Part shown: positions 58,380 through 61,680 of the stretch, piece by piece | Position numbering within the stretch: the stretch's first letter is position 1 | How the letters are laid out: each line of letters opens with the position of its first letter | DNA from: Nonomuraea sediminis | Lineage (GTDB): Bacteria > Actinomycetota > Actinomycetes > Streptosporangiales > Streptosporangiaceae | Assembly (NCBI RefSeq): GCF_018531495.1 | Contig: NZ_JAHDTI010000001.1 | Coordinates: 1,054,001-1,118,000 of the forward strand | Length of the DNA: 64,000 nucleotides | Direction of reading: 5' to 3' | The notes under the pieces: generated by a model | Databases searched by the model: none | What the model was told of the DNA's origin: nothing | The model's input: the letters and a program-made list of their open reading frames with translations, nothing else | Made by a program: the position numbers and the translations under genes

Positions 58380-59896
58380 GACGCGCGGCCCTGGGCGTCG
58401 GCGGCGCGGTGGTGCTGCTGGCCGCGCTCGACGCGTACGTGGTGGTCACCGTCCTGATCGACATCGCGCAGGAGGTGGGCGTCCCGCTGAACCACCTGGA
58501 GCGGGCCACGCCGGTGGTGACCGGGTTCCTGCTGGGCTACATCGCCGCGATGCCGTTACTCGGCCAGCTGTCCGACAGGTACGGCCGGCGTCCCCTGATC
58601 CACGCCTGCCTGGCCGCCTTCGCCGCCGGGTCCGTGCTGACGGCGCTGGCCTTCGGCGAGACGACGGTGGTGGCCGGGCGGACCGTCCAGGGCATCGCCG
58701 GCGGGGCGCTGCTGCCGATCACGATGGCGCTGATCGGCGACCTGTGGGAGGTGCGTGACCGGCCGGTGGCACTGGGCGCGGTCGGGGCGGCCCAGGAGCT
58801 GGGCAGCGCGCTCGGCCCGCTCTACGGCGGGGTGCTCGCGCTCATCCCGGCGTTCTCGGTGCTCGGGGTGGAACTGGGCGGCTGGCACGCCATCTTCTGG
58901 CTGAACGTCCCGCTCTCCGCACTGGCGGCGGTGGCCATCCACCGCACGGTCCCGGCCCGTTCGGGTGCCGCCCCGGCGGCGCGGGTCGACACGGTGGGCG
59001 GGCTGCTGCTCGCACTGGCGCTCGGGCTGCTGGTCGTCGGCCTCTACAACCCCGACCCGGCCAAGGCGGCGCTGCCGCCGTGGGGCTTGCCGCTGATCGG
59101 CGCCGGGGTCGTGGCGGCCGCGGTGTTCGTGTGGTGGGAGGTCAGGGCGCCGGTGCGGCTGCTCGACCTCACCGGCGTGCGCAAGGGCCCGCTGCTGGCG
59201 GCGCTGGGCGTCAGCTTCCTGTCGGGCGCCGCGCTGCTGATCACCATGGTGTTCGTCCAGTTCGCCGCGCAGACGCTGCTCGACCTGGAAACACTGCCCG
59301 CGGCGCTGGTCCTGGCGCGCTTCCTGCTCGCGCTGCCGATCGGCGCCGTGCTCGGCGGGGCGCTGGCGCGGCGGCTCGGCGACCGGATCGTGGCGGTGGC
59401 CGGGCTGCTGGTGGCCACCGCCGGATACGCGCTGATGAGCCGGTGGCCGCTGGACCTGGCCGGCGCCGGGTTCGTGGTGGACGCCGACCTGATCGTGGCC
59501 GGGCTCGGGCTCGGCCTGGTCATCGCTCCGATCTCGGCCGCGGTGCTGCGGCTGACGCCGCCCGCGCAGCACGGGGTCGCCTCGGCCGGTGTGGTGGTGG
59601 CCAGGATGATGGGCATGCTGATCGGCATCGCCGCGGTCTCGGCGTGGGGCTTCCACCGCTTCCAGGCGCTGACGGCCCACCTGGACACGCCGCTCCCCTT
59701 CGGGGTCGACGCGGTCACCTACGCCAGACGGCTGGCCGAGTACACGGCCAAGGTGAACGCCGCCCTGCACGCCGAGTACACCGAGATGTTCCTGGTGACG
59801 GCGTTCATCTGCCTGGCCGGGGCGGCGGTGGCGCTCCTGGTGCCGGGGCGCCACCCCCGCCCGTCAGAGTTCGCTCCCGAGCTCTCGTCAGGGTGA
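58376..59896 (+). CDS. MFS transporter, P55-like (partner of LprG)
   Basis: A 506-residue, probably 14-helix major facilitator. Helix 1 has LAALDAYVVVTVLIDIAQEVG, motif A is GQLSDRYGRRPLIH, and GWHAIFWLNVPLSAL follows helix 4-5. The coupling with the LprG-like gene, and the extended loop with two extra helices near the middle, match Rv1410c/P55, which exports triacylglycerides. Its stop overlaps the convergent AspRS gene by 9 bases. Confidence 0.88.
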   Translation: MRRAALGVGGAVVLLAALDAYVVVTVLIDIAQEVGVPLNHLERATPVVTGFLLGYIAAMPLLGQLSDRYGRRPLIHACLAAFAAGSVLTALAFGETTVVAGRTVQGIAGGALLPITMALIGDLWEVRDRPVALGAVGAAQELGSALGPLYGGVLALIPAFSVLGVELGGWHAIFWLNVPLSALAAVAIHRTVPARSGAAPAARVDTVGGLLLALALGLLVVGLYNPDPAKAALPPWGLPLIGAGVVAAAVFVWWEVRAPVRLLDLTGVRKGPLLAALGVSFLSGAALLITMVFVQFAAQTLLDLETLPAALVLARFLLALPIGAVLGGALARRLGDRIVAVAGLLVATAGYALMSRWPLDLAGAGFVVDADLIVAGLGLGLVIAPISAAVLRLTPPAQHGVASAGVVVARMMGMLIGIAAVSAWGFHRFQALTAHLDTPLPFGVDAVTYARRLAEYTAKVNAALHAEYTEMFLVTAFICLAGAAVALLVPGRHPRPSEFAPELSSG

Positions 59897-61117
59897 CAGG
59901 CGGTGCAGGTCACGCGGGAAGAGGGTGGCCTGGCGGATGTTGGGCGCGCCGGTCAGGCGGGCGGCCCAGCGTTCCAGACCCAGGGCGAAGCCGCCGTGGG
60001 GCGGCATGCCGTACGCGAAGGCCTGCAGGTAGCCCTCGTAGGGGCCCGTCTGACCGCCGAGCGCCCGCACGTAGTCCTCGTGGCGGTGCAGGCGCTGGCC
60101 GCCCGTGACCAGCTCCAGGCCGCGGAAGAGCAGGTCGAAGCTGTTGGAGTACTCGGGGCGGCCGGGCTCGGGATGGGTGTAGAAGGGGCGCTTGGCCATC
60201 GGGTAGCCGGTCACGAACAGGAACTCCGTGCCGTGCTCGCGCAGCGCCCACTCCGACAGCTCCCGCTCCCGCGCGGGTGACAGGTCGGGCTCGTCGCTGA
60301 CCTCGGAGAAGTGCACGGCGGGGACCTCCCGCGGCACCTCGGGCAGCAGGCCGGCGGCGGCGGGCACGCGTTCCCTGGTCGACTCGACCATGCCGGCGAC
60401 GGCCTCGCGCAGCACCGCCATGACGTCGCGGTGGTCGCGGACGAAGCCCAGCTCGGCGTCCAGGCTGGTGTACTGCGCCAGGTGTCGGGCGGTGTCGTGC
60501 GGCTCGGCGCGGAAGACAGGGCCGACCTCGTAGACGCGCTCGAACACGCCGACCAGCTGCTGCTTGAAGAACTGCGGCGACTGGGCCAGGTAGGCAGGAC
60601 GGCCGAAGTAGTCGATGCCGAAGACGTTCGCGCCCGACTCCGTGGCCGACTCGACGATCTTCGGGGTGTGGATCTCGGTGAAGCCCAGCCCGTCGAGCGC
60701 CCCGCGGAAGCCGGCGACGCTCGCCGCGGAGATCTCGTGCGCCAGGCGCAGGCTCGGGTGCCTGAGCGCCACGGGCGCGTGGTCGAGGATCGTGGGCAGC
60801 GTCGCGGGGACGCCCGGCCTGTAGAGGTCGAACGGCGGGGCCTTCACGGGCTCCGAGAGCACCTCGAGCTCGGGGTCTGACAGCTCGAACCCGCCGGGGG
60901 CCTGCGGGTTCGAGGTCACGGTGCCGGTGACCTGGACGACGGTCTCCTCCCCCGGCATTTCCCGATTTTTCGCGACAACCTGGGCGAGGCCAGATCTGTC
61001 CCTGATGACGAGGAAGTTCACGGATTTCAGCAGCCGGCGGCGATGGACCCAACCGGCGATCGTCACTCGCTGGCCGGCGTGCTCCGAGAGCTCCGCCGAC
61101 AGTACACGAGAGATCAT
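59888..61117 (-). CDS. aspS: Aspartyl-tRNA synthetase, short archaeal/non-discriminating type
   Basis: A 409-residue class IIb synthetase: N-terminal OB-fold anticodon-binding domain (RVTIAGWVHRRRLLKSVNFLVIRD), motif 2 VYEVGPVFRAEPHDTARH and motif 3 GFALGLERWAARLTG. It lacks the GAD insertion domain of the roughly 590-residue bacterial AspRS, so it is the archaeal-type enzyme that often charges both tRNA-Asp and tRNA-Asn. A normal bacterial AspRS is expected elsewhere. GAGGAG is 6 nt before ATG 61117. The 5' leader carries a T-box. Confidence 0.92.
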   Translation of the reverse strand: MISRVLSAELSEHAGQRVTIAGWVHRRRLLKSVNFLVIRDRSGLAQVVAKNREMPGEETVVQVTGTVTSNPQAPGGFELSDPELEVLSEPVKAPPFDLYRPGVPATLPTILDHAPVALRHPSLRLAHEISAASVAGFRGALDGLGFTEIHTPKIVESATESGANVFGIDYFGRPAYLAQSPQFFKQQLVGVFERVYEVGPVFRAEPHDTARHLAQYTSLDAELGFVRDHRDVMAVLREAVAGMVESTRERVPAAAGLLPEVPREVPAVHFSEVSDEPDLSPARERELSEWALREHGTEFLFVTGYPMAKRPFYTHPEPGRPEYSNSFDLLFRGLELVTGGQRLHRHEDYVRALGGQTGPYEGYLQAFAYGMPPHGGFALGLERWAARLTGAPNIRQATLFPRDLHRLSP

Positions 61118-61139
61118 TACAGCTCCTCACGGAAGTGCA

Positions 61140-61381
61140 TGACCCCTTGGGAGTGCGGGGGAGAAGGGAACTCCCGGTGCCACCGCACTTTCGCCGCCCG
61201 CGATCGTGGCGGCCTCTACGACCCGATGACGGGGGTCAGACCGGCGGGGCATTTCCTCCCCGCGGCTCGGGAGTGTCTTCGTCGCGGACCGCTGGACCGC
61301 CTTCCCAGCTTCCGGCGGCTCTCTCCGACCAGCGTTCTCCGCGCCTACTCGTCTCCGTCGGCGCCTGTCCCGCCGATGATA
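61140..61381 (-). promoter_or_regulatory. T-box riboswitch (tRNA-Asp) in the aspS leader, with candidate -10
   Basis: Read on the minus strand. Stem I: CGCGGA pairs UCCGCG, CGCUGG pairs CCAGCG, and CCGCC pairs GGCGG with AGAGAGCC between. The specifier loop has AGUA opposite GAA-GAC-A, the loop-E arrangement, so the specifier is GAC (Asp) at 61275-61277. Antiterminator: AGUGCGG (61183-61189) pairs CCGCACU (61152-61158), GGGAG pairs CUCCC, and the 7-nt bulge UGGCACC sits between. UGGC (61179-61182) complements the GCCA end of tRNA-Asp. No U run follows, so control is probably translational through the GAGGAG site. TATCAT at 61376-61381 is the candidate -10. Confidence 0.85.
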
Positions 61382-61418
61382 TCTCCCCCACCGATCTCCC
61401 TCCCACCCCTTTTCCCGC

Positions 61419-61680
61419 CGCTCTTCCTCAGGACCGTCCATACGGCATCTCCCCTGTCGCTCTTCCTCAGGGGCGTCCGTCCGACATCCCCACCGCTCTT
61501 CCTCAGGCGCCTGTACGGGCGTCTCCCCCACCGCTCTTGCCCAGGCGCCTGTACGGGCGTCTCCCCCACCGCTCTTCCTCAGGCGCCCGTACAGCGTCTC
61601 TCCCACCGCTCTTCCTCAGGCGCCCGTACAGCGTCTCTCCCACCGCTCTTCCTCGGAGGCGTCTGTACGGCAAGCCGCCC
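61419..61680. repeat. Seven degenerate tandem units of 35-40 bp upstream of aspS
   Basis: CGCTCTTCCTCAGG or a close variant recurs at 61419, 61459, 61494, 61532, 61570, 61607 and 61644, spaced 40, 35, 38, 38, 37 and 37 nt. Between the cores lie GGCGCC[T/C]GTAC and GCGTCTC[C/T]CCCAC blocks. Not a CRISPR array: the intervening blocks are repeated too. Confidence 0.75.

Follow-up and report, generated by a model that had tools for sequence, protein, structure and literature searches.

The leader of aspS2, which encodes an archaeal-type aspartyl-tRNA synthetase (AspRS) in Nonomuraea sediminis, is very probably a T-box riboswitch that senses tRNA-Asp and controls the translation of this gene. It occupies about 61377-61118 on the minus strand of the window, that is, of the whole 64,000-nucleotide stretch that was analysed, in a genome of 12.09 Mb and 43 contigs. 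The initial annotation had folded a T-box by hand in this region, and all the parts it named were recovered, on the minus strand and within 61140-61381 (Table 1). The Rfam model RF00230, whose use had been proposed as a check, aligns over its complete length (model 1-219) to 61370-61152(-) with 64.0 bits and an E-value of 2.2e-13 in a 1-kb stretch, or 6.3e-13 genome-wide; the score stays below the gathering score of 93. Under stricter filters, T-boxes at E <= 0.001 were detected in 153 of 200 genomes of the same family, and none of the 200 exceeded the gathering score, which suggests that a sub-threshold score is general for these T-boxes. At E <= 0.001, the genome hosting the window contains one further T-box only, located before ileS on contig C20.

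The gene product had been described as an archaeal-type AspRS of non-discriminating type, and comparisons with models, structures and relatives agree with this. It scores 488.8 bits against NCBIfam NF003483 (aspartate--tRNA(Asn) ligase), over the cut-off of 353 and thus an assignment at the equivalog level, and 320 against the related model TIGR00458, under its cut-off of 368.4; the nearest PDB structure is the Thermus thermophilus AspRS2 1n9w (E 1e-107). The closest named matches, at no more than 82%, come from Nonomuraea, where the tree also places the window protein. In the alignment to the Thermococcus enzyme 3nel, Trp26 is replaced by His and Lys85 by Pro, which we take to be the non-discriminating pattern of AspRS at these two positions. 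His26 is found in 133 and Pro85 in 134 of 154 aligned rows (151 from loci and window plus three references, one short row having been dropped); the rows without the pair are L012, which has Tyr and Pro, 13 enzymes of a second type discussed below, in which both residues are absent, six more distant enzymes and 3nel itself. The aspS2 product is probably a non-discriminating AspRS, which would charge both tRNA-Asp and tRNA-Asn. Thermus AspRS2, the closest solved relative, carries the same two residues and groups with the type of the window enzyme (type 1) in the tree, by a long-branch join that was flagged as possibly false; the actinobacterial clade is distinct.

Table 1. Features of the aspS2 leader and gene in the window
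Feature	Position	Strand	Basis or remark
-10-like hexamer TATCAT, just 5' of stem I	61376..61381	-	by eye, weak
Stem I, long form: base GGAG/CUCC, AGUA loop E, AGAGAG bulge region, distal loop	61270..61356	-	Rfam alignment; covarying helices
AGUA loop E	61349-61346	-	
AGAGAG bulge region of stem I	61324-61319	-	
GAA-GAC	61280-61275	-	specifier loop
Specifier codon GAC (Asp), after GAA, before A61274	61275..61277	-	GAAGAC conservation
Stem II, GCGGGG AGGAAAUG CCCCGC	61244..61263	-	sequence, alignment; missing in some relatives
Stem IIA/B pseudoknot, CGG/CCG crossing GACC (61237-61234)/GGUC (61223-61220)	61220..61243	-	IIB covariation; IIA by eye
Stem III	61193..61214	-	covarying columns 197-203/233-239
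Antisequestrator: A1 AGUGCGG/CCGCACU, A2 GGGAG/CUCCC, loop UUCCCUU	61152..61189	-	covariation
T-box bulge UGGCACC	61176..61182	-	UGGC complementary to GCCA end of tRNA-Asp
Helix P: CCCUU (61168-61164, antisequestrator loop) with AAGGG (61148-61144)	61144..61168	-	covariation
Anti-Shine-Dalgarno (ASD) CACUCC, within/after A1 3' strand	61150..61155	-	ASD:SD energies
Shine-Dalgarno (SD) region, GAGGAG 61128-61123, also in local hairpin UUCC-GUGA-GGAG	61118..61139	-	
aspS2, archaeal-type (AspRS2) aspartyl-tRNA synthetase, 409 aa, ATG at 61117	59888..61117	-	NCBIfam NF003483, 1n9w

The architecture of the leader is conserved among relatives. Of 211 stretches encoding relatives of the enzyme the best 80 were taken, all actinobacterial by title and including Nonomuraea, Streptosporangium, Sphaerisporangium, Kutzneria and Amycolatopsis; the pattern AGUA + GAAGAC + GGUGGNAC lies upstream of the gene in 78 of these 80 named loci, so that specifier and bulge are indeed kept in orthologous leaders, as the initial annotation had required. 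Two groups of type-1 loci from the same family show the pattern in 30/30 and 21/22 cases, the named and the family sets possibly overlapping in species and not being independent. AGAGAG occurs in all 78 named T-box loci, and AGUA, AGAGAG and GAAGAC are invariant in 56 aligned leaders, in which the distal-loop GCUG is nearly so. The ultrashort stem I of class II is absent from the window and from the same 78 named loci, where stem I is long. The two exceptions to the pattern, both from Catellatospora (L082 and L085), retain by eye the bulge, the antisequestrator and helix P (as CCCAAA/UUUGGG); also by eye, their stem I is apparently ultrashort, perhaps with GAC just before GCCC. Shorter leaders were found in L042, L063, L163, L171, L172 and L173, with stem II absent from L063 and L163 in the Rfam alignment, and RF00230 gave no match at E <= 0.01 for L042, L176, L082, L085 and L189. 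The position of the -10-like hexamer reads TACGAT, TACGAT, TACGCT, TAGCCT and TATCCT in five other leaders, and a sigma-70 scan of the window leader returned no promoter.

Covariation supports the helices drawn by hand, among them the three paired segments of stem I and the two helices that enclose the UGGCACC bulge. In 56 leaders, the three helices of stem I, IIB, stem III, A1, A2 and P covary (a scan without shuffle control); in IIB (columns 171-174/183-186), the outer pair appears as AU, GC and GU and holds 20 double-change cells. For A1 and A2, 55 non-redundant 3' parts were compared with controls: 99.7% of cells are paired, and the double-change cells number 53, compared with 15.7 +- 2.8 after shuffling and 0-6 after sliding; they fall in 5 of 12 pairs, a spread that 45/500 shuffles reached. 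Helix P, counted with one extra outer pair in 55 sequences, is paired in 90.9% of cells (86.2 in shuffles) and has 13 double-change cells (4.9 +- 1.8 in shuffles), nine of which are UA to GC at one pair; its outer pair fails in 25/55 sequences, and in one of five measures, that of further pair types, it does no better than shuffles (175/500). A chance resemblance to a T-box was ruled out by the covariation together with the conservation.

As to the tRNA that is sensed, the tRNA-Asp of the same genome has anticodon GUC and the 3' end GGACC-G, CCA not being encoded; its discriminator G bears out the proposed complementarity of UGGC to a GCCA tail. The tRNA-Asn likewise has discriminator G and ends G-CCA. 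UGGC thus fits both tRNAs, and it is the specifier GAC that decides for tRNA-Asp. A riboswitch for tRNA-Asn would suit an enzyme that carries non-discriminating residues and is predicted to feed Asn-tRNA formation, and the shared GCCA end would allow it. It would also parallel Clostridium acetobutylicum, where a two-codon T-box before the AspRS2/GatCAB operon is said, in work by Saad in 2012 and 2013, to sense tRNA-Asn and tRNA-Glu. That T-box, too, stands ahead of an extra non-discriminating AspRS; however, it belongs to a gat operon, whereas in N. sediminis the specifier is for tRNA-Asp and gatB is on another contig. Since an Asn specifier needs A as its first base, while GAC, not AAC, is present in 78 of the 80 named loci and in 58/65 fetched family loci (30/30, 21/22 and 7/13 of type 2), the other 9 loci lying wholly outside the pattern, tRNA-Asn sensing is very improbable.

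At the last position of UGGN, 69 of the 78 named T-box loci have C and 9 have U, and in N. sediminis itself UGGC of aspS2 contrasts with UGGU of the ileS T-box. The discriminator of tRNA-Asp is G in this genome and in ten others, six of which have a UGGU leader (the genomes of L057, L069, L073 and L079, these being four of the nine named loci, and G009 and G189); one second tRNA-Asp copy (L235, G597) was misread by the fit, but has the same 3' end. Because G was found in all 11 genomes checked, a G-U pair must be tolerated with the UGGU leaders.

With regard to the expression platform, no terminator-like site with a T tract was detected in 61050-61480 of the window, and by eye no U-rich sequence follows helix P in the aligned leaders. 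In several leaders CACUCC, with which the 3' strand of A1 ends, is the complement of GGAGUG at the Shine-Dalgarno (SD), and the two segments change together: they read CACCUCC/GGAGGUG in L041 and L042, and CACCUCCG/CGGAGGUG in L063. The mean energy of the duplex between this anti-Shine-Dalgarno (ASD) and the SD of the same sequence is -9.91, against -9.26 +- 0.18 when shuffled (1/5000; 54 of 55 rows, L147 being left out since it has no ATG start by the rule used), and for the 39 leaders that remain when the window and L007-L039 are set aside it is -10.43, against -9.55 +- 0.26 (0/5000), relatedness being uncorrected in both sets. In the window the match is weak and interrupted, at -8.3 kcal/mol. 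The lack of a U-tract terminator and the complementarity of the antisequestrator 3' strand to the SD make translational control of aspS2 likely.

The same data bear on transcription attenuation by a tRNA-Asp T-box, in which the terminator would be formed by helix P or by a longer, competing hairpin. This would accord with the long canonical stem I, which is typical of transcriptional T-boxes in the relevant parts of PMC7583486 and PMC7778990, and with the prediction of a longer alternative hairpin as the fold of 64-76-nt prefixes of the window leader. The 3' arm of that hairpin (GCACUU), however, is by eye unconserved in other leaders, and neither the missing T tract, nor the lack of U-richness after P, nor the ASD:SD match within sequences is in keeping with attenuation, which is accordingly unlikely. 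A long stem I would not by itself be new in a translational T-box, since a few already have one, as stated in a portion of PMC7583486 that also conveys Sherwood 2015.

A local fold of the SD region at <= -3 kcal/mol is predicted in 49/54 leaders, so that this hairpin may suffice to close the SD, or the SD may be closed in more than one way. Were access to the SD set solely by this hairpin, the T-box could be degenerate and functionless, a reading that the type-1 locus L189 (G105), with aspS2 but no recognisable T-box, would also favour. It is nevertheless very improbable, given the compensatory changes in the helices and the invariance of AGUA, AGAGAG and GAAGAC in 56 leaders; moreover, the local fold is missing in L083 and L084 and weak in L041 and L042 (-2.7 and -1.5), yet ASD:SD pairing is strong in these four (-12.2 to -17.7). 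Two smaller elements were discarded by eye: a tiny ORF from AUG 61140-61138 that overlaps the aspS2 start is not conserved, many relatives having AUCAC or GUCGC there, and a GUGC/GCAC hairpin masking UGGC in the window is broken in L054 and L164, whose A1 has changed.

Translational control by tRNA-Asp would proceed as follows. Uncharged tRNA-Asp would pair through its anticodon with GAC and through its GCCA end with UGGC, stabilising A1/A2; the stabilised helices would occupy CACUCC, leaving the SD uncovered, and ribosomes would load on aspS2. The 3' end of charged tRNA-Asp could not dock, so that A1/A2 would open and the loop CCCUU would pair with AAGGG; CACUCC, then free in the P loop, would pair with GGAG as an H-type pseudoknot and close the start. 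Helix P is assigned to this OFF state because it hardly coexists with A2. Nearest-neighbour folding without pseudoknots favours the antisequestrator over the OFF state: the leader without tRNA has its minimum at -27.8 kcal/mol in an antisequestrator-like fold, and antisequestrator plus local SD hairpin reaches -24.8 versus -11.3 for P plus the same hairpin. We infer from the leader that aspS2 is induced by uncharged tRNA-Asp.

Within the family, 68/200 genomes have a protein match to aspS2 at E <= 1e-30, 55 of type 1 (at least 64% identity) and 13 of type 2 (40-44%). Type-1 loci were fetched for 52 of the 55 genomes, and a T-box precedes the gene in 51, the exception being L189 (G105). In the other three genomes, G158 has a T-box with a partial gene, G079 an Rfam match beside its partial gene, and G070 (L176) a T-box leader fused to the middle of the aspS2 coding sequence, a decayed remnant which suggests that aspS2 can be lost. 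In a phylum-wide draw, 8/396 genomes gave a match at E <= 1e-40, and it was close in 2, the host genome included; by comparison with the family figure, aspS2 is mainly a gene of this family, with scattered occurrences outside it.

Type 2 is 36-43% identical to type 1 and forms a separate branch in a quick tree (SH-aLRT support 98 for 13 rows, 100 with four more distant rows). The T-box with GAC is present in 7/13 fetched type-2 loci (L161, L163, L164, L166, L171, L172 and L173) and absent in 6; the seven T-box-bearing rows form one branch (support 82), the rest being its sister and basal rows. Among 37 type-1 and 7 type-2 rows, mean leader identity is 77.0% between types versus 77.9% within type 1, whereas the corresponding protein values are 40.0% and 72.2%. 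Leaders so similar before proteins so different would be explained by an exchange of the T-box between genes, for which type 1 as donor and type 2 as recipient is the simplest case. The leader tree mixes the two types, and its starred branches force at most one change; the AU test allows the type-2 leaders to be monophyletic (p 0.26), and a single capture would be compatible. The first codons of L164, of type 2, match type-1 genes of Streptomycetaceae such as L040. In G116, G140 and G156, a type-2 aspS without T-box shares its contig with the bacterial aspS, from which it is separated by no more than ~2 kb.

The initial annotation had called aspS2 a second enzyme, which is correct for N. sediminis and does not extend to all its relatives. 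The genome encodes four PF00152 proteins, aspS2 among them: a 599-aa frame matched by TIGR00459 is the bacterial AspRS, the 1069-aa and 522-aa frames appear to be LysX- and LysS-like, and none of the four looks, on inspection, like an AsnRS; gatB is present. The bacterial AspRS accompanies aspS2 in 60/65 genomes (48/52 of type 1 and 12/13 of type 2), the search covering every genome with a match except G070, G079 and G171 (65 of 68). TIGR00459 found nothing in G105 (93% complete), G126 (77%), G167 (67%), G129 (99%) and G191 (99%); in G105 (L189), the T-box is missing as well. G129 (L115, L210) and G191 (L187, L209) come from the same genus, and TIGR00459 does match in six further members of it. 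In these two drafts aspS2 is the only AspRS found, no AsnRS was found and gatB is present; the sole PF00152 protein of G129 is aspS2, and G191 has two more, in frames of 343 and 765 aa. Barring assembly gaps (170 and 160 contigs), aspS2 is thus very likely the sole AspRS in both and, with no AsnRS found and gatB present, probably serves tRNA-Asp and tRNA-Asn.

A tandem repeat of 38 bp in 6.8 copies (window 61414-61671) lies immediately upstream of the leader; at this position the window has, by eye, neither the der-like nor the cmk-like gene, unlike 33 and 31 of the best 80 of 211 loci. In those loci, the upstream neighbours common to more than five are these two and one unnamed gene (17), and the downstream ones are MFS-transporter-like (27), lipoprotein-like (16) and MarR-like (21) genes (flanks of at most 3 kb, gene names by eye); the shared neighbours are nearly all in Nonomuraea. 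A biosynthetic cluster beside aspS2 as support for a resistance role was dropped, as only the above neighbours are shared in these flanks.

Compared with canonical RF00230 members, the aspS2 leader agrees in its stem I, with the specifier, AGUA loop E, distal loop and AG-bulge region, in stem II, the IIA/B element and stem III, and in a UGGN bulge within an antiterminator-like element; it differs in scoring under the gathering score, in having no terminator that could be found, in an added helix that joins AAGGG to the antisequestrator loop, and often in the base 3' of the specifier. In known T-boxes, according to the pertinent part of PMC7583486, a conserved purine directly follows the specifier; in the named loci this base is A in 44 (and in the window) and C in 34 of 78. 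The translational ileS T-boxes of actinobacteria, as far as described in the relevant sections of Seliverstov 2005 (PMC1262725), resemble the aspS2 leader in being from the same phylum and having no terminator, and an A1 3' strand complementary to the SD is common to both (by eye for ileS). The ileS T-box of N. sediminis (L180, C20; downstream gene TIGR00392, 830.9 bits, cut-off 621.4) has an AUC specifier (by eye), a short stem I and UGGU, as opposed to GAC, a long stem I and UGGC before aspS2, and by eye no CCCUU/AAGGG helix is seen in it.

Sections of PMC2494555 count 32 T-boxes in 12/19 actinobacterial genomes, 18 of them in Symbiobacterium, and PMC4206432, in the part concerned, reports on one group of 18 genomes in which five, all from Deinococcus-Thermus, encode a second AspRS. 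For typical actinobacteria only ileS T-boxes are named in the relevant portions of PMC4206432, PMC1262725, PMC2494555, PMC7583486 and PMC7778990, and no aspartate T-box was found for them in the literature searched; as far as this literature goes, the aspS2 T-box is new in gene and specificity for its phylum. TBDB, which according to part of PMC7778990 scanned actinobacterial reference genomes, may list these leaders.

Taken together, a non-discriminating AspRS would supplement the bacterial enzyme, and in some species replace it, when the charging of tRNA-Asp falls. Since a single step leads from a central metabolite to aspartate, a regulator responding to tRNA-Asp charging points to conditions in which AspRS fails. 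Possible, though doubtful, is a broader view in which the tRNA-Asp T-box and AspRS2 form an exchangeable inducible spare that brings the charging of both tRNA-Asp and tRNA-Asn back when the bacterial enzyme is inhibited, for example by a natural antibiotic of the microcin C kind that is directed at AspRS; the second, distantly related AspRS would have recruited the switch to the same end, and in a few species the spare would have displaced the original. Induction of aspS2 by an AspRS inhibitor is plausible, and resistance to such inhibitors becomes a directly testable idea. An aspartate-specific, probably translational T-box is thereby added to a phylum otherwise described, in the parts of the literature covered, with ileS T-boxes only. 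The same leader on two AspRS lineages that are 40% identical points to a T-box moving as a unit between genes, and the extra covarying helix P offers a defined target for the study of translational T-box switching, here in a switch linked to an auxiliary AspRS that apparently can become the only one.
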